Source: an uncultured Mucilaginibacter sp.
GTDB lineage: Bacteria; Bacteroidota; Bacteroidia; Sphingobacteriales; Sphingobacteriaceae
Assembly: GCA_903891475.1 (NCBI GenBank)
Contig: CAITEP010000005.1
Span: forward strand, 124,001-188,000
Length of the DNA stretch: 64,000 nucleotides
Reading direction: 5' to 3'
Shown: positions 47,264-64,000 of the stretch, one piece after another
Position numbering within the stretch: position 1 is the first letter of the stretch
Layout of the letters: each line of letters begins with the position of its first letter
Program-made: the position numbers and the translations under genes
Notes under the pieces: generated by a model
Told to the model about the DNA's origin: nothing
The model's input: only the letters and a program-made list of their open reading frames with translations
The model's database searches: none

Positions 47264-48025
47264 TTACCAACCACCTTTTAATCCTGCAGTAAGCGCTGCT
47301 TTATAGTTTTCCATGTCAAACGAGTAAAGGTAGGGTGCTTTATGCGCTCCGCCTTTTCTGGTTTCTTCAGCCTTGGTCAAAATTCCGAAGCCAAGCATTC
47401 GCCTTTGAAAATTTCTCCGATCCAGCTTTTTGTCTAATATGGTTTCATATAGTTTTTGAAGTTCGGGCATCGTAAATAGTTTCGGCATTAAATTGTAACC
47501 TATTGGCTGATAGTTTAATTGGACCCTTAGAGTGCCAAGCGCAGTATTTATAATATTTGCATGGTCTAGTCCTAACTTTGGCAGTTGGTTCAAATCAACC
47601 CAGTTACACGAAATGGAAAATTGATCAGGGGTAGGGTCAACGTCAAAAAAATCTACCAAAGCATAATAGCCTATAGTTAAAAATCTATTGGCAAACCAAT
47701 TCTCATTTTCAGGCAACATTTCTTTGTATAAGTCAAAGTGTTCTTTTGATCTGTCTGGGTCTCCAAAAACGTAAAATTGTTTCAAAAAAATATCGTCCAA
47801 TCCGGTTCGTTCTTTTAAGATCCTGTTGGCAGCATTTTCAATAGGTTCGACTTTTTGTAAAAAACCACCTGGTAAGTAATATTCTTCCTGATTTTTTGTT
47901 TCGAGTAATAGCACTTTTAACATGCCTTCGTGGAAACCAAATACCACACAATCAATAGAAATATGCGGAAGATATTTTTCTCTCGCCTCATTACAATAAT
48001 TGCTCAGTTCAGTTTTTGTTAACAT
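47264..48025 (-). CDS. Nudix-domain transcriptional regulator (NrtR/AraR-like) with degenerate Nudix box
   Basis: This 253-aa cytoplasmic protein has an N-terminal Nudix domain (about 15-150) and a C-terminal winged helix (about 165-235: MPKLFTMPELQKLYETILDKKLDRRNFQRRMLGFGIL). The Nudix box GFLQKVEPIENAANRILKER lacks two of the expected glutamates (Ile and Arg where E is consensus), so hydrolysis is probably lost. The domain likely binds a ligand. In Bacteroidota such proteins control sugar genes (AraR in B. thetaiotaomicron). It diverges from a GH3 beta-glucosidase across 186 bp with a dyad, so it probably senses a sugar derivative. Confidence 0.88.
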   Translation of the reverse strand: MLTKTELSNYCNEAREKYLPHISIDCVVFGFHEGMLKVLLLETKNQEEYYLPGGFLQKVEPIENAANRILKERTGLDDIFLKQFYVFGDPDRSKEHFDLYKEMLPENENWFANRFLTIGYYALVDFFDVDPTPDQFSISCNWVDLNQLPKLGLDHANIINTALGTLRVQLNYQPIGYNLMPKLFTMPELQKLYETILDKKLDRRNFQRRMLGFGILTKAEETRKGGAHKAPYLYSFDMENYKAALTAGLKGGW

Positions 48026-48154: not shown

Positions 48155-48171
48155 ACCTATACAAAATAGGT
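48155..48171. promoter_or_regulatory. 17-bp dyad between the Nudix regulator and the GH3 gene
   Basis: Arms ACCTAT (48155-48160) and ATAGGT (48166-48171) form a perfect 6-5-6 dyad 41 bp before the GH3 ATG. The geometry equals the dyad before susC (50924-50940), but the arm sequence differs. It is a candidate operator for the Nudix regulator. Confidence 0.4.
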
Positions 48172-48211
48172 GACATTATTTCATTTTTTAAATAAATTTT
48201 TCCGAATCAAA

Positions 48212-50521
48212 ATGACAAGCTACAAAACAGTATTAGTAAATCCTAAAGTACTAATTGCTTTAATTTTTACACTATTCTTTTTCCATACAAACGCTCAGAC
48301 GCTTAACGATGAAGCAAAAATGCAAACATTCGTAAAAGGACTTATGTCAAAAATGACACTTGATGAGAAAATTGGTCAACTCAATTTGGTTACAGGTGGT
48401 AATCCTACTACTGGTTCTGTTGTTAACAAGGGAATTGAAACAAATATTCAAAATGGAAATATTGGAGGAATTTTTGGTGTAGTTGGGGCTGATAAAGTTA
48501 AACAGGTACAGACAATAGCTGTTGAAAAATCAAGATTACATATTCCATTGATTTTTGGGTTGGATGTTATTCACGGTCATAAAACTACTTTCCCAATACC
48601 ATTGGGTATGTCAGCATCTTGGGACTTAGATTTAATTGAGCAATCTGCTAAATTGGCTGCTAAAGAAGCTACAGCTGATGGACTTGCCTGGGTATTTTCT
48701 CCGATGGTTGATATTGCTCGCGATCCTCGTTGGGGGCGTGTTTCAGAGGGAGCGGGTGAAGACCCTTGGTATGGCTCACAAGTAGGAAAAGCTTTAGTTA
48801 AAGGTTATCAAGGATCAAGCTTAAAATCGCCTGAAACAGTGATGGCTTGTGTGAAACATTTTGCCTTGTACGGCGGTGCTGAAGCAGGGAGAGAGTACAA
48901 TACTGTTGATATGAGTTTGATAAAAATGTATCAAGACTATTTGCCGCCTTATAAAGCTGCTATTGATGCAGGTGCAGGAAGTTTTATGAGTTCATTTAAT
49001 ACAATAAATGGGGTGCCGGCAACAGCTAATCATTGGTTGTTGACGGATTTGCTGCGTACTCAATGGGGATTTAAAGGTTTTGTTGTATCAGATTATACAG
49101 CAGTAAATGAGCTAATTAATCATGGCCTTGGCGATTTACAAACCGTTTCGGCATTATCACTGAAGGCCGGGTTAGATATGGATATGGTTGGGGAAGGCTT
49201 TTTAACAACGTTAAAAAAATCACTAAGTGAAGGTAAGGTAACTCAAGCAGAAATTGACTTGGCCTGCCAAAGGGTATTAGAAGCGAAATATAAACTTGGT
49301 CTTTTCGAAAATCCTTACAGGTCAATTAGTGCTGCCAGAGAAGCAAAGGATATACTAACTACCGAAAATCGTTTATTTGCAAAAAATATTGCAGAACATT
49401 CATTCGTATTACTAAAAAATAAAGATCAGATACTTCCATTAAAAAAAACGGGCACTATTGCATTGATTGGTCCACTTGCTGATAATCATTCTGAAATGTT
49501 AGGAACTTGGGCCGTTGCGGGCGACCCAAAGCTTTCTGTTAGCGTTATTGATGGAATTAAAAAACTGGTTGGTAGCAATGCTAATATTCTATATGCAAAA
49601 GGATCAAATATTACTGACGACTCTTTATTGAATGCCAGATCGTATTTCTTTGGTTTAAAACAAGATAAAGATACCCGTTTACCTCAGGATATGATAAATG
49701 AGGCGGTTGAAACTGCAAAAAAATCTGATGTAATAGTTGCCGTTGTTGGTGAATCAGCTAATATGTCGGGCGAATCTTCTAGTCGTTCTGATATCAGCAT
49801 CCCAGAAACCCAAGAAATTTTATTAAAAGCTTTGGCCAAAACCGGTAAACCTTTAGTTATAGTATTGTTTAATGGAAGGCCTTTAACCTTAACATGGGAA
49901 AATGAGCATGCAAATGCCATTCTTGATGTTTGGGCGCCTGGAACAGAAGCAGGTAATGCCATTGCAGATGTTCTTTTTGGGAATTACAATCCTTCCGGAA
50001 AAATCACAATGACTTTTCCTAGAAGCGTTGGACAAGTACCTATTTACTATAACCATAAAAATACAGGAAGGCCTTTTAATGAGGGTGATAATGCAAAATT
50101 TAAATCTGACTATATTGATATAACTAATGATCCACTATATCCTTTCGGTTATGGTTTAAGCTATACAACCTTTAGCTATAGCGATATTAAATTGAATAAA
50201 ACAAACCTAAAAGGAAACGAGACTTTGGTTGCAACACTAAATGTAACCAATACAGGAAGTTTTGCAGGCGAGGAAGTAGTACAATTATATGTAAGCGATC
50301 CTGTCGCAAGTATAAGCAGATCGGTAAAAGAATTAAAGAATTTCCAAAAAATAAACCTGAAACCAGGTGAAACTAAAGAGGTAAGCTTTAATGTTACAAA
50401 TGAAGATTTAAAATTCTATAATAACAACCTTCAATATGATTGGGAACCGGGTGAGTTTGTTATACAAATTGGAACAAATTCTACTGATGTTAAGAAGGCC
50501 TCTGTGCAGTGGATTAAATAA
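48212..50521 (+). CDS. bglX: Beta-glucosidase, GH3 (BglX-type)
   Basis: From the ATG at 48212 the protein is 769 aa with a signal peptide (ending HTNAQ), so it is periplasmic. It has the GH3 (beta/alpha)8 barrel (IFGLDVIHGHKTTFPIPLGMSASWD, FSPMVDIARDPRWGRVSEGAGEDPWYG, KHFALYGGAEAGREYNTVDMS), a nucleophile Asp in GFVVSDYTAV (about residue 294), the alpha/beta sandwich and a C-terminal fibronectin III-like domain. It cleaves terminal beta-linked glucose (or xylose). The GTG at 48170 lies within the dyad and is rejected. A strong terminator follows. Confidence 0.93.
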   Translation: MTSYKTVLVNPKVLIALIFTLFFFHTNAQTLNDEAKMQTFVKGLMSKMTLDEKIGQLNLVTGGNPTTGSVVNKGIETNIQNGNIGGIFGVVGADKVKQVQTIAVEKSRLHIPLIFGLDVIHGHKTTFPIPLGMSASWDLDLIEQSAKLAAKEATADGLAWVFSPMVDIARDPRWGRVSEGAGEDPWYGSQVGKALVKGYQGSSLKSPETVMACVKHFALYGGAEAGREYNTVDMSLIKMYQDYLPPYKAAIDAGAGSFMSSFNTINGVPATANHWLLTDLLRTQWGFKGFVVSDYTAVNELINHGLGDLQTVSALSLKAGLDMDMVGEGFLTTLKKSLSEGKVTQAEIDLACQRVLEAKYKLGLFENPYRSISAAREAKDILTTENRLFAKNIAEHSFVLLKNKDQILPLKKTGTIALIGPLADNHSEMLGTWAVAGDPKLSVSVIDGIKKLVGSNANILYAKGSNITDDSLLNARSYFFGLKQDKDTRLPQDMINEAVETAKKSDVIVAVVGESANMSGESSSRSDISIPETQEILLKALAKTGKPLVIVLFNGRPLTLTWENEHANAILDVWAPGTEAGNAIADVLFGNYNPSGKITMTFPRSVGQVPIYYNHKNTGRPFNEGDNAKFKSDYIDITNDPLYPFGYGLSYTTFSYSDIKLNKTNLKGNETLVATLNVTNTGSFAGEEVVQLYVSDPVASISRSVKELKNFQKINLKPGETKEVSFNVTNEDLKFYNNNLQYDWEPGEFVIQIGTNSTDVKKASVQWIK

Positions 50522-51254: not shown

Positions 51255-54200
51255 ATGTTTAAAAGTTTACTCCTAAAAGGAAGAACCATTTGCCTGCTCT
51301 TATGCTGCTTGGTATCTTCATTGGTAGTTACAGCCCAAACAAAGCACACAGGTAAGGTTATCGGCAGCGATGACAAACAACCTATTGTGGGAGCCTCCGT
51401 AAGGATAAAAGGCACAAATACTGGCGCTGTAACAGATGTTAACGGTGATTTTACCCTCACCATTTCGGCAGGTAACGTTCTTGAAATTAGTTACATTGGT
51501 TATACAACCAAACAAGTAACTGTTCAAAGCACGAGTTTCCTTACTATTTCACTAGATCCTGTAAATAACTCCTTAAATGAAGTTGTAGTTACAGGTTACC
51601 AAACTCAGGTAAAAAAGGACATTTCTGGTTCAGTGGCAACAGTAGATGTAACTGACGCTAAAAAAATTCCTTCCACAAGCTCTGAGCAATTATTACAAGG
51701 ACAAGCCTCTGGTGTTACTGTAATTAACTCAGGTGCTCCGGGTGCTGCTAGTACTGTGTTTATTCGTGGTATTTCAAACTTTGGTAACACTACACCATTA
51801 TACGTTATTGATGGTGTTCAAACTGGCGACATGTCTTTAGTAAATCCAAATGATATCGAAAGTATCAGCGTTCTAAAGGATGCTGGAGCTGCTGCTATTT
51901 ACGGTGTTTCTGGGGGTAATGGCGTAGTTGTTGTTACAACTAAAAAAGGTAAAGCAGGTAAAACTACCATCAGTTATGATGGTTATTATGGAACTCAACA
52001 ACCTTTAAGTGGTAATGTTTGGCATTTAATGAATCCAGAGCAACAATCGCAATTAGCATTTACTGCTGGTGATAAAGCAACAGAAGCATTATATCCAGGT
52101 GGTCCCGGTGTTATTCCAACTTACGGTTACCATGGTTCTACAGCTGCAGGTTCATTCGGTGTAGCTGGTGTAACAAGCGACCCTACTATTCTTCAATATT
52201 ACCATTTTGACGCTGCTAATCCTGGTAATGATTTCTTGATTCAGAAATTTGCAACCGGTTCAGGTACAGATTGGTTCCACTCTATTTTTAGTGCAGCTCC
52301 AGAACAACAGCATACAATTACTGCAAGTGGTGGTTCTGACAAAAGCAACTATTTGTTCTCATTAAATTATGTTAACCAAACAGGTACTTTACTAAATACC
52401 TACGAAAGAAGGTATACTGCACGTTTAAATACTAATTTTAGCAAAGGTCCAATTCGTATTGGAGAAACAGGTTTTGTTTCTTACCGCGAAAATAATGGTG
52501 GCTATAATGGTAGCCAACAAAATGAAGGTGGATCAATTGCCTATACTTACCGCGAAATGCCAATTATCCCGGTGTTTGACGTTGCCGGTAATTATGGTGG
52601 TGGTTATGATGGTCCGGGTGGTGAGCCACTTGGAAACGGAAGCAATCCTTATGCTATTCAAGCAGAACAAAGCACTAATAATGCCCACTTTGTGTATGTA
52701 CAAGGTAATGTTTTTGCAGAAGCTGATTTTGCAAAGTATTTTACCATTCGTACTAGCTTTGGTGGTTTATTATTTAACCAATACTACTGGAGCCTTAGCT
52801 ACAATCCATATCAGGATTATGAAAGCCATACTAATCCAAATGGTGCTAGCGAAAACGAACAAATTGTGGCTCATAGTAACTGGACAAACTTGTTAACCTA
52901 TAAGGAAACATTTGGTAAACACAATGTTAAAGTACTTGCAGGTTATGAGCAAAAAATAAGCTCTGGAAGGGAACTTCATGCTACTAACACTACTCTTTTT
53001 TCATTAGATCCTAATTACGTTCAAATTGGTGACGGTACTGTTTCAGCTCCGCCTTACAGCGTAATTTACCAACCAACAGGTACACAATCTATATTCGGAA
53101 AGTTGGATTATACTTATGATGATAAATACATTTTAGGCGCAACAATTCGCCGTGATGGATATTCATTATTTTACACTGGTCAACAATGGGGTACATTCCC
53201 ATCTGTATCACTTGCTTGGCGTATTCAACAAGAAGATTTCTTGAAAAACGTAAGTTGGCTTAATGATTTGAAAATTCGCGGTAGCTATGGTGAGGCTGGT
53301 AACAATGGCAATATTGGTGGTAGCAATGCTTATTCAAGCTACAACTCTGGCCAAGGTGCTTCTTATTATGGTATTGGGGGTGGTATTAACTCTATTACAC
53401 AAGGTTTTTATCAACAACAAAACGGTAACCCTAAAGTAACCTGGGAAACTGATAAAATTACCAACATAGGTTTTGACGCTTCATTATTCAATCATTTAGA
53501 TTTGACTGTTGAATGGTATAAAAAAGCGGTAAGCGGTTTATTATTTACGTTGCCTTTACCAGCTACAGTTGGTGGTGCTAATCCACCAGTTGTTAACGTG
53601 GGTGATATTGAAAACAAAGGTTTTGATATATCTGCTACTTATCATGATCGTTTAAGCAAAGATTTAAGCTTTAGCATCACTGCAAACATTACTACCTATA
53701 AAAATACTATTACTAAAGAGAGTGGTACTTCAAATTTCTTTGATACCGGCTCTTCTCGTGATAACCCAATTGTACGCGACCAGGTTGGTCAACCAGTTGG
53801 CGAATTTTTCGGTCTCCAAACTGCTGGTATTTACCAAAGTGATGCTGCTGCTAAAACAGGCGCCACTTATTCTGGTGCAGCCGCAGGTTCATTCATATAT
53901 AAAGACGTTAACGGTGACGGGAAAATTGACTTGACCGATCGTACTTTTATTGGTAACCCGAACCCTGACTTTACTTATGGTTTAAATGCAAATTTAACCT
54001 ACAAGCATTTTGATTTAAGTGTAGTATTTTATGGATCACAAGGTAATCAAGATTTTAACTATGTAAAATATTGGACTGATTTTTACAGTACTTTCCAAGG
54101 AGGTAAAAATTTAGACTTGTATAACAAAGCTGCAGTTGTTCAAGGCGGTGTTGTAACTAACCCTGGCGCAACTTTACCTGCTGCTTCTTATTCACAAGCT

Positions 54201-54509
54201 TTTGGTTCAAGCACAGTTAGTTCATTCTATGTTGAAAATGGTTCATTTTTAAAATGCCGTGTATTACAGGTAGGATATACATTCAGTCCTGAATTACTTA
54301 AAGCAATTGGTTTTGATAAACTACATGTATACGTTCAAGGAACTAACTTGTTTACCATAACCAAATACACTGGTCTTGATCCGGAATTGGTACCTTCATT
54401 GGCCAATCAGGGTAATGGCTCTACAGCAAGTGCTGCATTTGGAATTGATTATGGTGCTTATCCTGCCAATCAAAAGCAATTTATTGCAGGTGTTAATTTA
54501 ACATTTTAA
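51255..54509 (+). CDS. SusC/RagA-family TonB-linked outer-membrane transporter
   Basis: This 1084-aa protein has a signal peptide (ending VVTAQ), a carboxypeptidase-regulatory-like domain (about 30-105: GKVIGSDDKQPIVGASVRIKG), a plug domain with the SusC marks (NEVVVTGYQTQVKKDISGS, IRGISNFGNTTPLYVIDGV) and a 22-strand barrel ending in Phe (FIAGVNLTF). It imports a glycan or other ligand captured by SusD, energised by TonB. The SusD gene follows 25 bp downstream. The substrate is not known. Its upstream region is the long gene-free stretch with dyads. Confidence 0.96.
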   Translation: MFKSLLLKGRTICLLLCCLVSSLVVTAQTKHTGKVIGSDDKQPIVGASVRIKGTNTGAVTDVNGDFTLTISAGNVLEISYIGYTTKQVTVQSTSFLTISLDPVNNSLNEVVVTGYQTQVKKDISGSVATVDVTDAKKIPSTSSEQLLQGQASGVTVINSGAPGAASTVFIRGISNFGNTTPLYVIDGVQTGDMSLVNPNDIESISVLKDAGAAAIYGVSGGNGVVVVTTKKGKAGKTTISYDGYYGTQQPLSGNVWHLMNPEQQSQLAFTAGDKATEALYPGGPGVIPTYGYHGSTAAGSFGVAGVTSDPTILQYYHFDAANPGNDFLIQKFATGSGTDWFHSIFSAAPEQQHTITASGGSDKSNYLFSLNYVNQTGTLLNTYERRYTARLNTNFSKGPIRIGETGFVSYRENNGGYNGSQQNEGGSIAYTYREMPIIPVFDVAGNYGGGYDGPGGEPLGNGSNPYAIQAEQSTNNAHFVYVQGNVFAEADFAKYFTIRTSFGGLLFNQYYWSLSYNPYQDYESHTNPNGASENEQIVAHSNWTNLLTYKETFGKHNVKVLAGYEQKISSGRELHATNTTLFSLDPNYVQIGDGTVSAPPYSVIYQPTGTQSIFGKLDYTYDDKYILGATIRRDGYSLFYTGQQWGTFPSVSLAWRIQQEDFLKNVSWLNDLKIRGSYGEAGNNGNIGGSNAYSSYNSGQGASYYGIGGGINSITQGFYQQQNGNPKVTWETDKITNIGFDASLFNHLDLTVEWYKKAVSGLLFTLPLPATVGGANPPVVNVGDIENKGFDISATYHDRLSKDLSFSITANITTYKNTITKESGTSNFFDTGSSRDNPIVRDQVGQPVGEFFGLQTAGIYQSDAAAKTGATYSGAAAGSFIYKDVNGDGKIDLTDRTFIGNPNPDFTYGLNANLTYKHFDLSVVFYGSQGNQDFNYVKYWTDFYSTFQGGKNLDLYNKAAVVQGGVVTNPGATLPAASYSQAFGSSTVSSFYVENGSFLKCRVLQVGYTFSPELLKAIGFDKLHVYVQGTNLFTITKYTGLDPELVPSLANQGNGSTASAAFGIDYGAYPANQKQFIAGVNLTF

Positions 54510-54534
54510 TTAAAATATAAAAAATTTTAGAGTT

Positions 54535-56361
54535 ATGAAAAATTCTTATATTAAATTCATTGCCCTGGGATTGCTCGGAGTTATAACGGTTACTTATTCA
54601 TGTAAGAAATTGTTGACTACGCCTCCTGTTGGGTCTTTAAGCGCCGCCACCTTAGCCAATAAAGCTGGTGTTGACGGATTGCTTATCGGAGCATACTCAA
54701 TGCTCGACGGTTATACCAATACTTATGGTACTTCATGGGAGTCATCAATTGATAACTGGGTATATGGTGGTATAGCTTCTGATGATGCTTACAAAGGTTC
54801 AAACACAACAGATCAACCGGTGGCAGCTCCAATCGAGAACCACTCCGTTGACGCTTCAAATGAGTTCTTAAATGAAAAATGGACTGTTTGTTATAATTCA
54901 ATTCAACGTGCGAATGACGTAATAAGAGAAGTTCCTTTGGTTACTGACGGATCTGTTAGTACAGCTTATGGTCAAGAGGTAATTGCTGAAGCAAGATTTT
55001 TAAGAGGCATTTATCACTTTGAGCTTGCTAAAATGTTTAGGAATGTACCTTATGTTGATGAAACTGTCACATACGCTGCAGGTAACTTTAACGTAGGTAA
55101 TCCAGGCCCCATTTGGGACAAAATTGAGGCTGATTTTGCTTTTGCAATGACAATATTGCCAAAAACTCAATCACAAGTTGGTCGTGCTAATTATTACGCT
55201 GCAGAAGCTCTTTTAGCAAAGGCTTATATGTTTGATCATAAATATTCAACTGCATTACCTTTATTAACCGATTTAATTAATAATGGTGTTACTTCAAGTG
55301 GTGCTAAATATGCTTTAGGTCCATATGAAGATAACTTTAACGCGGTGAAAAGAAATAGCCCAGAAGGCGTATTCCAAGTTCAAATGACTGTTAATGACGG
55401 TTCAGGCGGTAACAACGGTGCATTAGGTGATGACCTTAACTTCCCTGCCGGTACTTATACCGGTTGCTGCGGCTTTTACCAACCATCTATTTCATTAGCT
55501 AACGCTTTCCAAACACAAAATGGTTTGCCGTTAATTAATGCTGATGGTAGTTATCACTATAATGATAATGCACTTAAAAATGATCATAATTTAGGTGCCA
55601 GTGATGCATTCACTCCTTCAACTGCTCCTATTGATCCTCGTCTTGATTGGACTGTAGGCCGTCGTGGTATTCCTTATCTTGATTGGGGATTATGCGGAGG
55701 CGAGCAATGGTCACGTGGTGATATTACCCCATATAACCCAATTAAAAACATATTCTTCCACGCTAACCAAGCGGCTACAACTGATAATGCTGGAGGTTGG
55801 GCATCTAACCAAGGGTCAGCCATAAATTATAATTATGTACGTTTTGCTGATGTAATTTTATGGCGTGCAGAATGTGAAGTTGAAGCAGGTTCATTAGCTG
55901 CTGCTGAAGCCGATGTGAACTTGGTAAGGAACCGTATGGCTGCGCACCAAGAATACTGGGTGCACAATTACCTTGATAATGCAAACCCTGGAAATGGTTA
56001 TGCAACTACCCTTGCTGCAAATTATGTAATTGCTCCTTACAACGGTCAATTTGCAGCCAATGGTCAGGCTTTTGCCCGTTCAGCTGTTTATATGGAAAGA
56101 CAACTTGAATTAGGTATGGAAGGTCATCGTTTCTTTGATTTACAACGTTATGATGGTCGTTTCGGTGGCCCGGCAGGTAATGGCTTTATGGCTGGTATAC
56201 TAAATAACCATATTACAACCAATATAGCGTTCCTGGCGCCAGGTGGTAACCCTGTTTTACAAGGTCATACCTTTACTGCGGGTAAAAATGAAATATATCC
56301 AATTCCAATTCAACAAATTGATATTGAAAACGGTGCTCTAAAACAAAACACCAATTATTAA
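54535..56361 (+). CDS. SusD/RagB-family nutrient-binding lipoprotein
   Basis: This 608-aa outer-membrane lipoprotein has a lipobox at VTYSC (Cys22). The TPR-rich SusD fold is evident in VIAEARFLRGIYHFELAKMFRNVPYVDET, YAAEALLAKAYMFDHKYSTALPLL and the C-terminal RQLELGMEGHRFFDLQRYDG and KNEIYPIPIQQIDIENGALKQN. It covers the SusC barrel and binds the ligand. It is followed by a terminator, so susC-susD form one transcript. Confidence 0.96.
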   Translation: MKNSYIKFIALGLLGVITVTYSCKKLLTTPPVGSLSAATLANKAGVDGLLIGAYSMLDGYTNTYGTSWESSIDNWVYGGIASDDAYKGSNTTDQPVAAPIENHSVDASNEFLNEKWTVCYNSIQRANDVIREVPLVTDGSVSTAYGQEVIAEARFLRGIYHFELAKMFRNVPYVDETVTYAAGNFNVGNPGPIWDKIEADFAFAMTILPKTQSQVGRANYYAAEALLAKAYMFDHKYSTALPLLTDLINNGVTSSGAKYALGPYEDNFNAVKRNSPEGVFQVQMTVNDGSGGNNGALGDDLNFPAGTYTGCCGFYQPSISLANAFQTQNGLPLINADGSYHYNDNALKNDHNLGASDAFTPSTAPIDPRLDWTVGRRGIPYLDWGLCGGEQWSRGDITPYNPIKNIFFHANQAATTDNAGGWASNQGSAINYNYVRFADVILWRAECEVEAGSLAAAEADVNLVRNRMAAHQEYWVHNYLDNANPGNGYATTLAANYVIAPYNGQFAANGQAFARSAVYMERQLELGMEGHRFFDLQRYDGRFGGPAGNGFMAGILNNHITTNIAFLAPGGNPVLQGHTFTAGKNEIYPIPIQQIDIENGALKQNTNY

Positions 56362-56380
56362 AAGTTAGTGTAATTTACTA

Positions 56381-56419
56381 AAAGAGAGGTGGTGATATCT
56401 GTCACCATCTCTCTTTTTT
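56381..56419 (+). terminator. Terminator of the susC-susD transcript
   Basis: AAAGAGAGGTGGTGA (56381-56395) pairs with TCACCATCTCTCTTT (56402-56416) with one G-U, 6-nt loop, then a T run. Confidence 0.9.
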
Positions 56420-56421
56420 TA

Positions 56422-56429
56422 TACCTTTG
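56422..56429 (+). promoter_or_regulatory. -7 promoter element TACCTTTG for the FG-GAP/haloperoxidase operon
   Basis: An exact TAnnTTTG match lies right after the susD terminator and ends 17 nt before the ATG at 56447. It suggests the lipoprotein operon has its own promoter separate from SusCD. Confidence 0.55.
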
Positions 56430-56446
56430 CTTACTTCTTTTATTAC

Positions 56447-59400
56447 ATGAGAAAGCTTAGTTACTTTTATTTTTTTTTTATTCCTCTCATAATCTTTTCC
56501 TGTAAAAAGTCAACACTTTTTGAAAAGATCCCTTCTTCATTTTCCGGGGTTACATTTAATAATAAGGTAATAGAAAACGATTCTATAAACCCATTGGATA
56601 AACTTAATATATATAATGGTGGTGGAGTGGGTATTGGTGATTTTAATAATGATGGCTTGCAGGATATTTATCTAATTGGTAATCAGGTTTCTAATAGATT
56701 GTATATTAATAAGGGCAACTTTAAATTTGAAGATGTTACCAATGAAGCTGGAGTTGGCGGTCTGGGTGGTTGGGGCCGTGGTGTAGCTGTTGTTGACATA
56801 AATAACGATGGTTTATTGGATATTTATGTTTGCAATACCTTGCTAAGCGATTCAACTAAAAGACGAAACCTGCTTTATATTAACCAGGGATATGATAAAA
56901 AGGGTATTCCTCACTTTAAGGAAATGGGCAAAGAATATGGACTAGATATTTTTGTCCACTCAACGATGGCTAATTTCTTTGATTATGACAATGATGGCGA
57001 CCTCGACATGTACTTAACTGTAAATGAGGTAACATCAACTGACAATACATCAAGTTTTAGACCTGTGGTAAAAGATGGCTCAAAATCAAGCACTGGCAGA
57101 TTGTACAAAAATGATTGGGATCCGGTTTTAAAGCATCCTGTGTTTCATAATGTATCAAAAAAGGCAGGTATTTTAATTGAAGGTTATGGGCACGCTGCTA
57201 CTGTAGTTGATTTAAACCGTGATGGATGGAAGGATATTTATGTTACTAACGATTTTTTAGGCAGTAACATATTATATATTAATAATCATGACGGAACATT
57301 TACTGACAGATCTAAAGAATATTTTAAACATACTTCTAATAGCTCAATGGGTCAGGATATTGAAGATATCAATAATGATGGCCTTGCCGATGTTTTTGAA
57401 CTTGATATGTTTCCGGAGGATAATTATCGAAAGAAGATGTTTATGAGTGCTTCATCATATCAGTCATATAAAAACTATGATTTTTATGGTTATCAATATC
57501 AATATAATCGAAATACATTACAAATAAACCAAGGCCCGCGGGTTGGGCAGCAAGACTCAATTGGTAGCCCCGCTTTTAGTGAGACATCCTTTTTAAGTGG
57601 TGTTGCAGCTACCGATTGGAGTTGGTGCCCATTGATGACTGATTTTGATAATGATGGATTAAGAGACCTCATTATAACCAACGGTTACCCGAGGGATGTT
57701 ACGGATCATGATTTTATTATTTTTAGAGCAGAATCATATCTGATAGCACCTAAAAAGGAAATACTAGATCAAATCCCTATAATTAAGATCCCGAATTATG
57801 CTTTTAAAAATAAAGGTAACTTCCAATTTACTGATGTTACCAATATTTGGGGGCTTGATGTACCGACTTTTTCTAATGGAGCGGCTTATGCTGATTTAAA
57901 TAACGATGGAGCAATGGATGTGATCATTAATAATATAAATGATGAAGTATTGATATATAAAAATACCTCCAGAGAAAAGAATAAAGCAAGCTCAAATTAT
58001 TTGAATATTAAATTCAATGGCGCAACAAAAAATGTTGATGGAATAGGAGCATGGGCCGATATTTATTATGATCATGGCAAACATCAGGTTTATGAAAATA
58101 CGCCATTTAGGGGGTACTTATCAACAATTCAAAATATAGCTCATTTTGGGCTTGGTAAAGATTCAATTCTAGATTCGGTAGTTATAAAGTGGCCTGATAA
58201 TAAAAAACAAACATTACTAAACGTTAAGGCAAATCAACTCTTAAAGGTTAACTTAACCAATGCAAAGCAAACATACAGTTTTGATGCACCTAAATTAAAT
58301 ACAAAATCATTATTTAAGGAAGTCACAAACTCTGCTGGAATTAACTATAAACATCAGGAGGATGATTTTGCAGATTTCAATATACAAAAATTAATTCCTC
58401 ATAAATTATCACAATATACACCAGCTATTGCTGTTGGAGATATTGATGGAAATGGATTTGATGATATGGTAATTGGCGGTACAACCAAATTCCCTGCGCA
58501 GGTGCTTTTACAACAACCAAATGGGAAATTTCTACAAAGAGATTTATTATTACCAAAAGCTGATTATAACCATTTAAAGCCACAGGTAAAAGATGAAGGA
58601 ATTTTACTATTTGATGCAAATGGAGATGGTTACCCTGATGTTTACATTGCAAGCGGGGGTTATGAGAATGGCCCGGGCTCTCCAACCTATCAGGATAGAT
58701 TATATATAAATGATGGTAAAGGAAATTTTAAAGAGGCTAATGATGCCTTGCCTAAAAATCTTACCAGCAAATTATGTGTTAAAGCTGCCGATTATAACAA
58801 AGACGGTAAGCTTGATTTATTTATTTCGGGACGTGTAGAGCCATGGAATTATCCCAAACCAGTTTCTAGTATAATTCTGCGCAATGACAGCAAGAATGGA
58901 ATAATTAAATTTACCGATGTAACACAATCCGTTGCTAAAGACTTAAAAAATATAGGACTTGTTTGTGATGCGATTTTTACTGATTTTGACAATGATGGTT
59001 GGGTTGATTTAATTTTGACTGGTGAATGGATGCCAATTACCTTTTTGAAGAACGATCATGGTATCTATAAAAATGTCACCGATAAATCAGGAATTAGTAA
59101 TAAATTAGGATGGTGGAATTCAATTACCGCCGGTGATTTTGAAAACAACGGAAGAACTAGTTATATCATTGGTAATACAGGGTTAAATACATTTTATAAA
59201 GCATCAGATGAATATCCTGTTTATATAACCGCCAAGGATTTTGAAAATAGAGGTTCATTTGATGCTTTTCCATCTTTATTTTTAAAAGATGTTGATGGAA
59301 AAATGCAGGAATTTCCGTCACTTACAAGAGATGATATTGTAAAACAAATGATTAGTATGCGTAAGCGATTTCAAAACTATAAATCATTCGCGGTTGCAAC

Positions 59401-60037
59401 AATGGACTCTGTCATTACACCCGAAATGCGTAAAGGGGCAATTAGGTTTAAAGTTAATACGATGCAATCTTGTTATCTGCGTAATATTGGAAATGGAAAA
59501 TTTCAGTTAATACCTTTGCCATTAGAAGCTCAAACTTCACAATTAAATGGCATGGTGGTTGATGATTTTGACGGTGATGGAAATTTAGATGTTGCGATAA
59601 CTGGAAATGATTACGGTACTGAAGTTACAACAGGTAGATATGATGCATTTAATGGACTTTTGCTTAAAGGAGATGGAAAAGGTGGGTTTAAGCCAAAATC
59701 AATTATTGAAAGTGGTATTTATATCCCTGGGGATGGCAAATCACTAGTAAAATTAAGAAGCGCTAAAGGAGGATATTTAGTGGCAGGAAGTCAAAATCGA
59801 AATGCATTGAAACTTTTTGAACTTAAACGGCCTGCTAAGTCAATACAGTTATTACCTTCTGATCAATTTGCCATAATAAAGTATAAAAGCGGGAAAATAA
59901 GAAAGGAAGAATTTTATAATGGTACATCGTTTTTATCACAATCAGGTAGATTTATGTTACTTGATGATAAAATAGAATCAATAACAATAACTGATGTGTA
60001 CGGAAAATTAAGGTCAATTACTCTAAATAACAATTAA
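56447..60037 (+). CDS. Giant FG-GAP/VCBS-repeat lipoprotein with internal ASPIC/UnbV domain
   Basis: This 1196-aa protein has a lipobox (IIFSC, Cys19). A first set of FG-GAP repeats (about 55-500) has calcium loops such as DINNDGLLDIY, DYDNDGDLDMY and DFDNDGLRDL. An ASPIC/UnbV domain sits at about 517-600 (GIGAWADIYYD, FGLGKDSILDSVVIKWPDNKKQ). A second FG-GAP set (about 640-1110) includes DANGDGYPDVY, DYNKDGKLDLF and DFDGDGNLDVA. These make beta-propellers of the CRTAC1/integrin-alpha type, probably on the cell surface. The role could be ligand binding or scaffolding for the haloperoxidase encoded 1 bp downstream. Confidence 0.9.
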   Translation: MRKLSYFYFFFIPLIIFSCKKSTLFEKIPSSFSGVTFNNKVIENDSINPLDKLNIYNGGGVGIGDFNNDGLQDIYLIGNQVSNRLYINKGNFKFEDVTNEAGVGGLGGWGRGVAVVDINNDGLLDIYVCNTLLSDSTKRRNLLYINQGYDKKGIPHFKEMGKEYGLDIFVHSTMANFFDYDNDGDLDMYLTVNEVTSTDNTSSFRPVVKDGSKSSTGRLYKNDWDPVLKHPVFHNVSKKAGILIEGYGHAATVVDLNRDGWKDIYVTNDFLGSNILYINNHDGTFTDRSKEYFKHTSNSSMGQDIEDINNDGLADVFELDMFPEDNYRKKMFMSASSYQSYKNYDFYGYQYQYNRNTLQINQGPRVGQQDSIGSPAFSETSFLSGVAATDWSWCPLMTDFDNDGLRDLIITNGYPRDVTDHDFIIFRAESYLIAPKKEILDQIPIIKIPNYAFKNKGNFQFTDVTNIWGLDVPTFSNGAAYADLNNDGAMDVIINNINDEVLIYKNTSREKNKASSNYLNIKFNGATKNVDGIGAWADIYYDHGKHQVYENTPFRGYLSTIQNIAHFGLGKDSILDSVVIKWPDNKKQTLLNVKANQLLKVNLTNAKQTYSFDAPKLNTKSLFKEVTNSAGINYKHQEDDFADFNIQKLIPHKLSQYTPAIAVGDIDGNGFDDMVIGGTTKFPAQVLLQQPNGKFLQRDLLLPKADYNHLKPQVKDEGILLFDANGDGYPDVYIASGGYENGPGSPTYQDRLYINDGKGNFKEANDALPKNLTSKLCVKAADYNKDGKLDLFISGRVEPWNYPKPVSSIILRNDSKNGIIKFTDVTQSVAKDLKNIGLVCDAIFTDFDNDGWVDLILTGEWMPITFLKNDHGIYKNVTDKSGISNKLGWWNSITAGDFENNGRTSYIIGNTGLNTFYKASDEYPVYITAKDFENRGSFDAFPSLFLKDVDGKMQEFPSLTRDDIVKQMISMRKRFQNYKSFAVATMDSVITPEMRKGAIRFKVNTMQSCYLRNIGNGKFQLIPLPLEAQTSQLNGMVVDDFDGDGNLDVAITGNDYGTEVTTGRYDAFNGLLLKGDGKGGFKPKSIIESGIYIPGDGKSLVKLRSAKGGYLVAGSQNRNALKLFELKRPAKSIQLLPSDQFAIIKYKSGKIRKEEFYNGTSFLSQSGRFMLLDDKIESITITDVYGKLRSITLNNN

Positions 60038-60038
60038 A

Positions 60039-61358
60039 ATGAAATATTTAAAAATAGGGGTAACCTTTATAGGTGTTTTATTGATATCTAATTGCAATAT
60101 AAAACCCAAGGTTGCTTTAATTCCTGATTCAGAAGTGTTGCATTTAAATGAATACGCTCTAACTCAGGTAATTATTTATGATGTATTTACACCACCAGTT
60201 GCAAGTAGAATTTATGGTTATACTGCCCTAGCTTCGTATGAAGCTTGTAGGTTTGCTGACCCAAAATATAGTTCAATCATTTCCAAACTTAAAGGTTTTA
60301 GTACATTACCCATACCAGAAATTGGAAAGAAGTATAATTTTACACTTGCTGCCACTAAGGCATTTTTTACGGTTGCTCGTAAAGTTACTTTCTCTGTTGA
60401 TTCTTTTAAGAAGTATGAAGATAGGATTTATAACATGTATAAGGATAACTTGGATGATTCAACCTATTTAAGATCAACTAAGTTAGGAGAAGAAATTGGA
60501 AAGGTGATTTTAAAAAGGGCAGCAGTTGACAATTACCCTCAAACCAGATCAAAGCCTAAATATCTAGGTGAAAATAGTCCCGCAAAATGGCGTCCAACTC
60601 CACCAGATTATATGGATGGTGTTGAATTTTGCTGGGGAACAATGAAACAATTTGCTGTCGATTCTTCCAGTCAATTTGCACCACCGCCTCCACCTTCGTT
60701 TAGTGAAGATAAAAACAGTGATTATGTAAAACAATACACCGCTGTTTACAACACCAATAAAAACCTTACTAAAGAACAAATAGAAATTGCAAAATTTTGG
60801 GATGATAATCCATTTGTTGTAGTGCACAACGGGCATTTAATGTTTGTAGATAAAAAAATTACACCCGGTGGACATTGGATTGGTATTACTACAATTGCTT
60901 GTAAACAAACAAACGCTGATGTTGTTAAAACTGCCGAAGCTTACGCATTAACAGCTGTTGCATTATATGACGCCTTTATTTGTTGCTGGCAGGTTAAATA
61001 CCATTACAGTTATGCGAGACCTGTTACCTTGATAAATGAGAAAATTGACAATGGTTGGCTTCCTTTATTACAAACGCCCCCATTTCCTGAATATACTGCC
61101 GGGCATTCAACTATAAGTGCAGCTTCAGCAGCGGTATTGACACATGAATTTGGAGAAAATTTCGCTTTTAAAGACACTAGCGATTTACATTATATTGGTA
61201 TGCAACGGAATTTTATTTCATTTACAAAAGCTGCGGAAGAAACTTCGATAAGTAGGTTTTACGGAGGTATACATTTTTTAAATAGTTCAAAAATGGGTGC
61301 CCAACAAGGAAATAAAATAGGTAATTACATTTGGAATAAATTAAAAACAACAAATTAA
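60039..61358 (+). CDS. Vanadium-dependent haloperoxidase/PAP2-fold lipoprotein
   Basis: This 439-aa protein has a lipobox (LISNC, Cys19). All three motifs of the vanadate/phosphate site are present: K-x6-RP (KYHYSYARP, about 320), the xxGH motif in PEYTAGHSTISAA (about 350) and SR-x5-H (SRFYGGIHF, about 404). The PEYTAGH form is the vanadium-haloperoxidase-like variant of PSGH. Such enzymes use peroxide to oxidise halides, or act as acid phosphatases. It sits in one operon with the FG-GAP proteins. Whether it binds vanadate is inferred. Confidence 0.9.
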   Translation: MKYLKIGVTFIGVLLISNCNIKPKVALIPDSEVLHLNEYALTQVIIYDVFTPPVASRIYGYTALASYEACRFADPKYSSIISKLKGFSTLPIPEIGKKYNFTLAATKAFFTVARKVTFSVDSFKKYEDRIYNMYKDNLDDSTYLRSTKLGEEIGKVILKRAAVDNYPQTRSKPKYLGENSPAKWRPTPPDYMDGVEFCWGTMKQFAVDSSSQFAPPPPPSFSEDKNSDYVKQYTAVYNTNKNLTKEQIEIAKFWDDNPFVVVHNGHLMFVDKKITPGGHWIGITTIACKQTNADVVKTAEAYALTAVALYDAFICCWQVKYHYSYARPVTLINEKIDNGWLPLLQTPPFPEYTAGHSTISAASAAVLTHEFGENFAFKDTSDLHYIGMQRNFISFTKAAEETSISRFYGGIHFLNSSKMGAQQGNKIGNYIWNKLKTTN

Positions 61359-61361
61359 ATA

Positions 61362-62924
61362 ATGAAAATCAAAAAAAATACAATACTGGTATCTTATATT
61401 TTGTTGGGTGTTGGAATATTTATTGGGTTATCTACTTTTTCAGGGTGTAAAAATAAATCAGATAATAATTATCTGCTTACTGGCGACGCTATTAAAGATG
61501 GAGAAAACTTAGTTCAAATACATTGTACAAAATGCCATGAATTGGTTCCTTATAATGCAATATCAAAGTCGGTTTGGATAAACCATGCTTTGCCAACCAT
61601 GGCAAAATATTTCAAGGTATTAACTTATGGAACGCAATACTATAAAAAGGATCTTTTAGATACTTCTGGAATTAGTTTGCAAAATTGGAATGCTATTGTT
61701 AATTATTACCAAAAAATATCCCCAGATACCTTATTACCGGCAAAATTACCGACACCAATGATTGAGGACTGGGCTGGTTTTAACTTAAAAAAACCTGGAA
61801 GTGCACCTGTTCCGGTTTTTACTACCATGCTAAAATATAATAATTCATTAAATAAATTATTTACTTCGGATGCTTCAACAGGAAGGATTTATAGCTGGGG
61901 CGAGGATTTAAATCCTAAACCTATAGGAACTAATTTGCCTTCACCCGTGGTTGATGGCTTATTTTTTAAAGATAATAAGGGAATTAATCAAGCTTTATTT
62001 AGTTGCATCGGTCAATTTTTACCTATGGATTTTCCTAATGGAAAAGTGGTTGGATATGATCTTGATCATTCGAACGCTTTAACTCAACCCTCATTAATAG
62101 CCTCTGAAGTTTCTAGGCCAGTTCAAACCATAAGGGATGATTTTGATAAGGATGGGACAGGAGATTTTGTTGTGCTTTCACAAGGCCATTTAAAGGGAGG
62201 GGTTTACCTATATAAACAAAATAAGGATAAAACCTTTGCTCAATCAACTATTACTGAACAACCGGGTGCTGTACAAGCAGTAGCAGGCGATTTTAATAAC
62301 GATGGATGGCCTGATTTAATGGTGTTATTTGGAAGTGGTGATGAAGGACTTTGGCTATTCACAAATGATAAAAAAGGTGGTTTTACCTCTAAAAACCTTT
62401 TACGCTTCCCCCCGGTTTATGGTTCAAGTAGCTTTCAACTAGCTGATATTGACCATGATGGTAACCCTGATTTAATATATACAAGCGGATATAATTATCA
62501 TGACTCACGGATTTTTAAACCGTATAATGGGCTATATATATTTAAAAATACTGGAAACTGGAACTTTAAACAACAATGGTTTTACCCTATAAATGGGTGT
62601 ACAAAGGCTATAGCAGCTGATTTTGATAAAGATGGTGATTTGGATATAGCGACTATTGCTTTTTTTGCAGATTTGAAAAATAATCCAAAGGAAAGCTTTA
62701 TTTATTTTGAACAAAAATCAGCCTTTAATTTTGTGGCTCATGCAATTCCAATTAACAAATATGGACATTGGATGACCATGGATGTTGCGGATTATAATGG
62801 AGATGGTAAACCTGATATTATTTTAGGCAATTACTCAAGAGGTCTTTTAATTCAATCAGGTTATAAGCCAACTTGGGACGAAAAATTACCACTTATCGTA
62901 CTAGCGAATAATTATAAAGAATAG
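61362..62924 (+). CDS. Heme-c-binding FG-GAP lipoprotein
   Basis: This 520-aa protein has a lipobox (STFSGC, Cys29) and a c-type cytochrome-like N-terminus with one heme motif CTKCH (Cys55, Cys58, His59). About 150-520 is a beta-propeller of FG-GAP repeats with calcium loops (DFDKDGTGDFVV, DFNNDGWPDLMV, DIDHDGNPDLIY, DFDKDGDLDIAT, DYNGDGKPDIIL). The downstream gene is a paralogue. Combined with the haloperoxidase it suggests surface redox chemistry. It is 3 bp after the haloperoxidase gene and ends in a terminator. Confidence 0.88.
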   Translation: MKIKKNTILVSYILLGVGIFIGLSTFSGCKNKSDNNYLLTGDAIKDGENLVQIHCTKCHELVPYNAISKSVWINHALPTMAKYFKVLTYGTQYYKKDLLDTSGISLQNWNAIVNYYQKISPDTLLPAKLPTPMIEDWAGFNLKKPGSAPVPVFTTMLKYNNSLNKLFTSDASTGRIYSWGEDLNPKPIGTNLPSPVVDGLFFKDNKGINQALFSCIGQFLPMDFPNGKVVGYDLDHSNALTQPSLIASEVSRPVQTIRDDFDKDGTGDFVVLSQGHLKGGVYLYKQNKDKTFAQSTITEQPGAVQAVAGDFNNDGWPDLMVLFGSGDEGLWLFTNDKKGGFTSKNLLRFPPVYGSSSFQLADIDHDGNPDLIYTSGYNYHDSRIFKPYNGLYIFKNTGNWNFKQQWFYPINGCTKAIAADFDKDGDLDIATIAFFADLKNNPKESFIYFEQKSAFNFVAHAIPINKYGHWMTMDVADYNGDGKPDIILGNYSRGLLIQSGYKPTWDEKLPLIVLANNYKE

Positions 62925-62940
62925 TACCTAAATTAATTTC

Positions 62941-62990
62941 AAAGAGGTAGTGTTGAAATTTTTATAGATTTCAGCCCTACCTCTTTTTTT
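62941..62990 (+). terminator. Terminator of the FG-GAP/haloperoxidase operon
   Basis: AAAGAGGTAG (62941-62950) pairs with CTACCTCTTT (62977-62986), with a possible inner TGAAAT/ATTTCA stem, followed by a T run. Confidence 0.88.
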
Positions 62991-63228
62991 TGATAAACCG
63001 TTAATAAATATTTTTTTTGCAATTTCATTTAGTACTAGCATACAAATAATTATCCTCCTAAAACTATATTAACAAAGTATTAGTTTCCTAACACTTCTTG
63101 TATTTTTCAATAGTATAATAGAAAAGTAATTTTAATACAAAATAACCCTATTTTCCTAAAATTATTACGGTTTAATACTATTTTGAGGGTTATTTTCAAT
63201 AACTTACCTAAAATTTATTACCCCTATT
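62991..63228. other. Intergenic region before the second heme-c FG-GAP gene
   Basis: This AT-rich stretch has no ORF seen. It holds a dyad GTTATT-N3-AATAAC (63189-63203) and an imperfect direct repeat CCTAAAATTATTAC (63155-63168 and about 63207-63221). They may regulate the downstream gene; both are short. Confidence 0.35.
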
Positions 63229-64000
63229 ATGAAATTTATTGAAGTAAGGAATATTTATTTACCTTGTTTTTTCATTATTCTTACCCTAACAGTTTTTGTA
63301 ATTATTAATAGTTGCAACCAAAGCAATCAGCAATCGAATCTTGAAGCACAAATTGCCAATGGAAAACTATTATCTCAAAAATACTGTATTAGCTGTCACC
63401 AATGGCCTGACCCATCCTCAATTGATAAAAAGAGTTGGGAGTTAGGTGTTTTGCCGGCAATGGGGAAACAGCTCGGGATAAAAATGTTTATGGGGCAATA
63501 TTTTGGAGATCAAAAATCAACCATTAATATTTCAGATTGGCAAAATATAGTTACTTACTATAAAAGTATGTCACCCATTTCTTTGGAGATTCCTTTACCA
63601 AGAATAAAGCCAAAAAGTGATTGGGCAATTTTTACACTCCAATTGCCTGCAATAGTTAATCAAAAAATACCAGCCATGACAACCATGATATCGTTTAATC
63701 ATAGCAACAATTCACTTTATACGGCTGATGCAGGTAATAATTTTTTTAAGTGGAATGCTGGGTTGAGTAGTAGTTTAGTTTACAAGTTTGATTCTCCGGT
63801 TACCGGATTAAGTTATTCAAATGGTACTATTAAGGGAATAATTACTTGCATTGGTAATTTAGCACCTGTTAACTTAAAAAAGGGTAAGGTTTTTTTGATT
63901 GATTTGAATAAAAAAAATACAAAACCTACATTAATTACTGATAGTATGCCGCGATCTGTACAAACCGTTGCAGCCGATTTTAATAAGGATGGTTTGATGG
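63229..64000 (+). CDS. Heme-c-binding FG-GAP lipoprotein, paralogue of 61362-62924 (cut by window edge)
   Basis: The frame opens at ATG 63229 and runs off the window (257 codons seen). It has a hydrophobic signal and lipobox (VFVIINSC) and a heme motif CISCHQWP. The N-terminal cytochrome-like part aligns with the previous gene (KSWELGVLPAM against SVWINHALPTM; ISDWQNIVTYYKSMSP against LQNWNAIVNYYQKISP). FG-GAP-like strands begin near the window end (AADFNKDGLM). Its full length and C-terminal repeats are not visible. Confidence 0.88.
   Translation, partial: MKFIEVRNIYLPCFFIILTLTVFVIINSCNQSNQQSNLEAQIANGKLLSQKYCISCHQWPDPSSIDKKSWELGVLPAMGKQLGIKMFMGQYFGDQKSTINISDWQNIVTYYKSMSPISLEIPLPRIKPKSDWAIFTLQLPAIVNQKIPAMTTMISFNHSNNSLYTADAGNNFFKWNAGLSSSLVYKFDSPVTGLSYSNGTIKGIITCIGNLAPVNLKKGKVFLIDLNKKNTKPTLITDSMPRSVQTVAADFNKDGLM

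Follow-up and report, generated by a model that had tools for sequence, protein, structure and literature searches.

A VIPO1-type vanadium-haloperoxidase-like (VHPO) lipoprotein is encoded directly behind a SusC–SusD transporter pair and a 1196-residue FG-GAP/UnbV propeller lipoprotein (UnbV) in an uncultured Mucilaginibacter sp., and most close relatives of the enzyme gene have the same three genes upstream. The genes lie at the 3' end of the window, the 64,000-nucleotide stretch analysed here (G000:C5:124001-188000, part of a 3.96 Mb genome). Judged from the genes and their conservation, we tentatively read the module as a conserved surface oxidative accessory of a polysaccharide-utilization-locus (PUL)-type locus, the enzyme of which may oxidize a halide, likely iodide or bromide, with H2O2; we regard this as a serious candidate that still falls somewhat short of probable. 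The genes concerned are the following.

51255-54509, + strand: SusC/RagA TonB-linked transporter (TIGR04056, 801 bits)
54535-56361, + strand: SusD/RagB lipoprotein (PF07980, 110 bits)
56447-60037, + strand: FG-GAP/UnbV propeller lipoprotein, 1196 aa (PF13517, 214 bits; UnbV_ASPIC PF07593, 70.3 bits, cutoff 23.4)
60039-61358, + strand: VIPO1-type VHPO lipoprotein, 439 aa (PF01569, PAP2; 4CIT match, model and active site given below)
61362-62924, + strand: CytFG, a heme-c and FG-GAP propeller lipoprotein, 520 aa (Pfam FG-GAP; CxxCH and M80)
63229-64000, + strand: second CytFG paralogue, running past the window end (47% identity to the first CytFG; CISCH)

A first-pass annotation of the window had named the SusCD, UnbV, haloperoxidase and heme-c genes at these coordinates, and the Pfam and NCBIfam identities agree with it. 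Its proposal that the partner proteins are lipoproteins is matched by a lipobox-like start (a hydrophobic stretch ending in Cys, read by eye) in UnbV, VHPO and both CytFG copies. The second heme-c paralogue that it listed is present, but incomplete in the window; the complete 517-residue frame is found at L007:229-1782.

By sequence and predicted fold, the enzyme groups with the Zobellia galactanivorans iodoperoxidase VIPO1 and away from the small PAP2 phosphatases, as the first-pass annotation had supposed in calling it a haloperoxidase. Residues 32-436 match VIPO1 (PDB entry 4CIT) with 41% identity (E=2.8e-114), and 4CIT is the sole distinct PDB sequence that matches below an E value of 0.01. 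An AlphaFold2 model (pLDDT 90.2) was compared with PDB entry 4USZ and gave TM values of 0.87 (query) and 0.92 (target). Foldseek ranked VIPO1 first for this model (E=1e-33), followed by NapH3 and by bacterial and fungal chloroperoxidases (chloroperoxidases at 1e-10 or better), with acid phosphatases far below (2e-4). Seven residues (W317, K320, R327, F349, H356, R406 and H412) are identical in 110/110 VHPO sequences above 280 bits; this limit, like the 450-bit limit used below, was chosen after the scores were seen. We take K320, R327, H356, R406 and H412 to be the vanadate-site Lys, two Arg and two His. Among the best 80 of 592 relatives, the nearest named ones are from Mucilaginibacter, with a best identity of 89%.

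The acid phosphatases of the PAP2 superfamily presumably share the motif SRxxxxxHxxxD, with an Asp four residues past the last His. This position is Ser416 in the window enzyme and is Asp in just one of the 110 sequences above 280 bits and in 5/10 weaker homologues. Together with the Foldseek ranking, it speaks against a second explanation, namely that the enzyme is a surface PAP2-superfamily phosphatase or hydrolase trimming phosphorylated glycans before SusCD uptake, with no halide chemistry. We consider this explanation unlikely. In its favour are the PF01569 match itself, the phosphate intermediate of dephosphorylation trapped in apo vanadium chloroperoxidase (PDB entry 3BB0) and the existence of phosphate-scavenging SusCD loci (PusCD) in Flavobacterium (PMC8115612, accessible text). 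These loci resemble the window in combining SusCD with non-CAZyme partner enzymes, but according to the same text they carry phosphomonoesterases and diesterases, of which the recurrent neighbours named in the VHPO loci include none; nor do these neighbours include any phosphatase or phosphate transporter, in contrast to the PusCD loci. From 47264 to L007:4701, neither Pfam nor inspection by eye gave a phosphatase or phosphodiesterase gene.

The neighbourhood of the enzyme gene was compared for the best 80 of 592 confirmed relatives in named genomes, a set that hence leans to close relatives. Gene starts were placed mechanically at the first start codon. The 47 loci with VHPO above 450 bits were treated as close relatives and the other 33 as distant. 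According to their titles, the close relatives come from Mucilaginibacter, Chitinophagaceae, Dyadobacter and other Bacteroidota, and UnbV stands directly upstream on the same strand in 37 of the 47. Where enough flank was available (n=40), the five genes upstream included UnbV in 37 loci, SusC in 36, SusD in 36 and all three in 35. For the distant relatives, UnbV was found in the fetched DNA in 17/33 and as the immediate neighbour in 12, and all three genes lay within five genes upstream in one of the 22 with enough flank.

The search was also run on a wide sample from the phylum (118 genomes; E<=1e-20 for VHPO). VHPO was found in 21 genomes (37 matches) and the UnbV domain in at least 53, among them all 21. 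At least 21 of the 29 VHPO genes above 280 bits have a UnbV domain within 10 kb, against 0.64 expected if genes are evenly spread and related genomes independent; chance neighbourhood of VHPO and UnbV was rejected, the counts being far above expectation. By gene comparison, the DNA fetched around 22/29 includes a UnbV-like gene, directly upstream on the same strand in 15. For the weaker VHPO genes the UnbV domain was within 10 kb in 0/8, and gene comparison, with two more genes of the source genome included, gave 1/10.

The VIPO1 chain itself was searched against 397 genomes of one family, taken as Flavobacteriaceae since one of them (G118) matches at 99%, and was matched in 175 at E<=1e-100. 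From these 175 genomes 20 stretches, mostly high-scoring, were picked by hand, and 11 further stretches likewise. UnbV is present in 18 of the 20, in 15 of them directly upstream of the enzyme gene. In the stretch with the gene 99% identical to VIPO1 (L185), three UnbV-like genes lead directly into the enzyme gene, and the UnbV domain was confirmed in both of those tested. Over a further 16-17 kb upstream, a SusC-like gene occurs in 9/9 genomes, with SusD confirmed by Pfam in 3/3 tested. SusCD and UnbV of the Zobellia-like genome are separated by several other genes and may therefore not form one operon. Directly 3' of VHPO, several Flavobacteriaceae-type loci carry a GyrI-like small-molecule-binding protein, for example L185:8475-9371(-) and L046:10650-11555(+).

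The source genome has two more SusCD-UnbV-VHPO loci. One (C16) has the order SusC-SusD-UnbV-VHPO-GH3; in the other (C8), SusC, SusD and UnbV are followed by an FG-GAP propeller without UnbV domain, one opposite-strand gene and VHPO-GH65-VHPO-GH130. All four VHPO genes of this genome above 280 bits thus sit in SusCD-UnbV loci, and the stretches examined around a weaker homologue on each of C12 and C14 gave no UnbV, SusC or SusD match. The presence of SusC and SusD upstream, both in these three loci and in most of the close relatives, speaks against a third explanation, in which nutrient loci harbour the module as a device for defence or against stress, serving to oxidize halide or to remove quorum signals or peroxide, that uptake does not need. 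The constancy of UnbV-VHPO while the neighbouring sugar genes change would fit such a device, as would the higher expression of Zobellia vIPO3 on Ascophyllum than on alginate and maltose, placed in an algal-defence context in the accessible portion of PMC9296495. We give it a low probability.

CytFG has the CxxCH motif and distal ligand by which c-type cytochromes are recognized in sequence, and heme binding is predicted: C55, C58, H59 and M80 are invariant in 33/33 aligned homologues, and CxxCH is found in all 37 CytFG frames above 200 bits near VHPO loci. Pfam gave no cytochrome domain in CytFG, only FG-GAP. The model (pLDDT 88.8) combines a propeller with an N-terminal part made of helices. 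Its fold matches are propellers of many kinds, with CRTAC1 first, followed by aldos-2-ulose dehydratase (PDB entry 4A7K, 12% identity) and integrins; an enzyme function was not adopted from these matches. In ten stretches with CytFG relatives from outside the genus, VHPO was found in none, SusC and SusD matches in five (some of the SusD matches weak, 20-33 bits) and UnbV in four. In four stretches from one distant family (L165, L166, L167 and L170), the CytFG relative lacks adjoining SusCD and neighbours a conserved gene (about 430 aa) that by eye resembles adenylosuccinate lyase.

The proposed mechanism is as follows. SusC and SusD would import a carbohydrate-containing nutrient, which UnbV, as a large surface binding or scaffold lipoprotein, would hold at the surface together with SusD. 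Tight gene adjacency suggests that the VIPO1-type enzyme is held beside UnbV. By homology to VIPO1, the enzyme may bind vanadate and oxidize a halide, most likely iodide or bromide, with H2O2, or may oxidize an electron-rich group directly; the same homology suggests that the target of the oxidant would be electron-rich moieties, either in the nutrient or in competitors and host defences. The H2O2 could come from sugar oxidation, for example by a GMC oxidoreductase, and the oxidized products could enter through SusC. Where present, CytFG, or another cytochrome, might move electrons at the surface.

Several observations weigh against this oxidative reading. Motif 2 of the window VHPO is TAGH, with Ala354 in place of what is presumably the functional Ser of the PSGH-type motif, so that the vanadate-site motifs, which the first-pass annotation had called complete, retain the Lys, both Arg and both His and differ at this position. 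Of the 110 sequences above 280 bits, 94 have Ser here, 13 including the window enzyme have Ala and three have Cys; as Ala is tolerated in the VIPO1 group, we file the protein as a homologue, short of a proven haloperoxidase. Soil and freshwater, where many carriers live, are poor in iodide, and its scarcity in soil also favours the phosphatase explanation. No halide-related gene was found among the recurrent neighbours named, and the variety of neighbouring sugar genes (rhamnose, xylose, glycerol, kojibiose) points to no one substrate. The gene set varies too. Two close VHPO relatives (L095, 665 bits, and L100, 640 bits) have neither UnbV nor SusCD among the five genes upstream, which shows that the enzyme can occur alone. 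In the wide sample, SusC, SusD and UnbV occur together within five genes in 5 of the 24 loci with at least 9 kb of upstream DNA, and CytFG in 2/29. CytFG is often absent from the close relatives (present in 25/47) and was found in 0/33 of the distant ones, and was rejected as a core member. The co-occurrence of four families that the first-pass annotation had proposed to look for therefore holds for SusC, SusD and UnbV upstream of VHPO in the close relatives, and for UnbV in the wide sample, but the full set is not universal. With this restriction, its idea of an oxidative module serving nutrient uptake is in keeping with the conserved gene set, the VIPO1 affiliation and the mostly carbohydrate-related neighbours.

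The Ser-to-Ala exchange in 13/110, and the fact that two of the three proteins are propellers, could also mean that this branch has lost the redox chemistry and uses UnbV, VHPO and CytFG chiefly for binding or as scaffolds. The seven active-site residues fixed in 110/110 and the heme ligands fixed in 33/33 CytFG argue against such a loss, which we regard as improbable.

If the oxidative reading is extended beyond the window, the loci would make up a nutrient-locus class that occurs in several Bacteroidota families and in which a surface machine of SusCD, UnbV and VHPO, with a heme-c partner in some, oxidizes or halogenates its target before import; we put this forward as a more doubtful proposal than the oxidative accessory itself. 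If true, nutrient capture would be oxidative instead of hydrolytic, and the native role of the VIPO1 group would lie in nutrition in soil, freshwater and sea, and not only in algal iodine chemistry. VHPO genes, including one 99% identical to crystallized VIPO1, stand beside UnbV genes in many Bacteroidota and directly behind SusC-SusD in one branch, which makes the native role of these bacterial iodoperoxidases accessible to deletion and growth tests. UnbV_ASPIC proteins and the heme-c propeller family also gain a defined genetic context.

Among known systems, VIPO1 belongs to the same enzyme group, shares the active-site residues but one and, judged by the 99% match, is likewise encoded behind UnbV genes. 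The window VHPO differs in the Ala at the motif-2 Ser, in its place directly behind SusC-SusD-UnbV with CytFG and in its soil-type host. CRTAC1 (cartilage acidic protein 1, PDB entry 9ETN), the top fold match of CytFG, is also a sequence relative of UnbV (E=1.4e-14), but is an animal protein with a chain of 586 residues as compared with 1196, and a heme motif is not claimed for it. In utilisomes and BtuB-BtuG, surface lipoproteins are complexed with an outer-membrane transporter, as those of the window may be, whereas a haloperoxidase or heme partner is not mentioned for them in the accessible parts of the sources (PMC7618045, PMC10404256). The first-pass annotation knew of no described system with this gene set, and we likewise found no description of SusCD, UnbV, haloperoxidase and heme-c together in literature keyword searches, the coverage of which excludes most subscription papers; the same searches gave no match for haloperoxidase with SusD and UnbV, or for haloperoxidase with Mucilaginibacter.

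The remaining features of the locus are listed below.

47264-48025, - strand: NrtR/AraR-type regulator (NUDIX and winged helix; PF21906, PF19368, PF00293), possible locus regulator
48170-50521, + strand: glycoside hydrolase family 3 (GH3) beta-glucosidase, BglX type (PF00933; NF011678, 997.6 bits, cutoff 666)
56362-56446, + strand: terminator-like hairpin in the SusD/UnbV gap (minimum free energy -28.5 kcal/mol, z -5.94, 0/200 shuffles equal)
62925-63000, + strand: terminator-like hairpin 3' of the first CytFG (minimum free energy -25.7 kcal/mol, z -8.00)
L007:1906-4701, beyond the window: GH2-type gene 3' of the second CytFG, named from its L082 relative

UnbV and VHPO are separated by 1 bp, and VHPO and CytFG by 3 bp. 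With strong hairpins in the SusD/UnbV gap and 3' of the first CytFG, SusC-SusD is probably transcribed separately from UnbV-VHPO-CytFG. A simple terminator scan of the whole region showed no excess over chance (8 found, 8.0 expected), and promoter pattern scans of the region gave no more than chance. The TAnnTTTG box just before UnbV, which we take to be the Bacteroidota -7 motif, is uninformative, with 88 occurrences in the window and 110 by chance.

Two genetic hallmarks of a PUL are found: susC and susD are adjacent, and the locus contains CAZymes, GH3 upstream and GH2, assigned by its cluster, downstream. Like PULs, the locus also has a sugar-type regulator, the cluster of which recurs near five other loci (L088, L113, L118, L120 and L124). 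Unlike in PULs, the genes that adjoin SusCD encode oxidative and propeller proteins and not glycoside hydrolases, and no CAZyme gene lies between SusD and CytFG.

Part of the recurrent neighbour clusters of the VHPO loci were named, mostly from one tested member each: GH3 (22 loci), GH2 (12), beta-phosphoglucomutase-type HAD (10), GH65 (9), GMC oxidoreductase (7), FGGY kinase (6) and trehalase (4). In some relatives the GMC oxidoreductase gene lies next to the module, and redox genes recur near VHPO loci but differ in kind. The clusters named do not support a halogenated natural-product locus, the second role (making halogenated products) that the first-pass annotation had entertained. Rhamnose was rejected as a common substrate: strong rhamnose-gene matches were obtained only at C8, and the kinase and isomerase of L208 are of xylose type, the isomerase above its NCBIfam cutoff and the kinase below. 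At C8, L-rhamnose isomerase, kinase, aldolase and RhaT genes (L008:2116-8012) lie beside the second VHPO locus with GH65 and GH130. One GH65 (L063) is a kojibiose hydrolase by NCBIfam; loci with GH65 of this type and with trehalase (L129) look as if intended for alpha-glucosides or glucosylglycerol. Four distant VHPO loci (L130, L136, L137 and L141) carry glycerol kinase, an aquaporin-type channel and a sugar transporter.

Two Dyadobacter loci (L106:14331-20497(+) and L110:11944-17918(+)) have VHPO followed by a PSCyt1/DUF1549/DUF1553 gene and by two further genes that the two loci share. Eleven loci have a lipoprotein-like multiheme cytochrome nearby, with seven CxxCH motifs in ten and one incomplete. 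It has a weak MtrC-type Pfam match (e.g. L087:5244-6452(-)); in Mucilaginibacter-type loci it lies near CytFG or UnbV on the other strand, and it is not adjacent to the gene set of the window itself.

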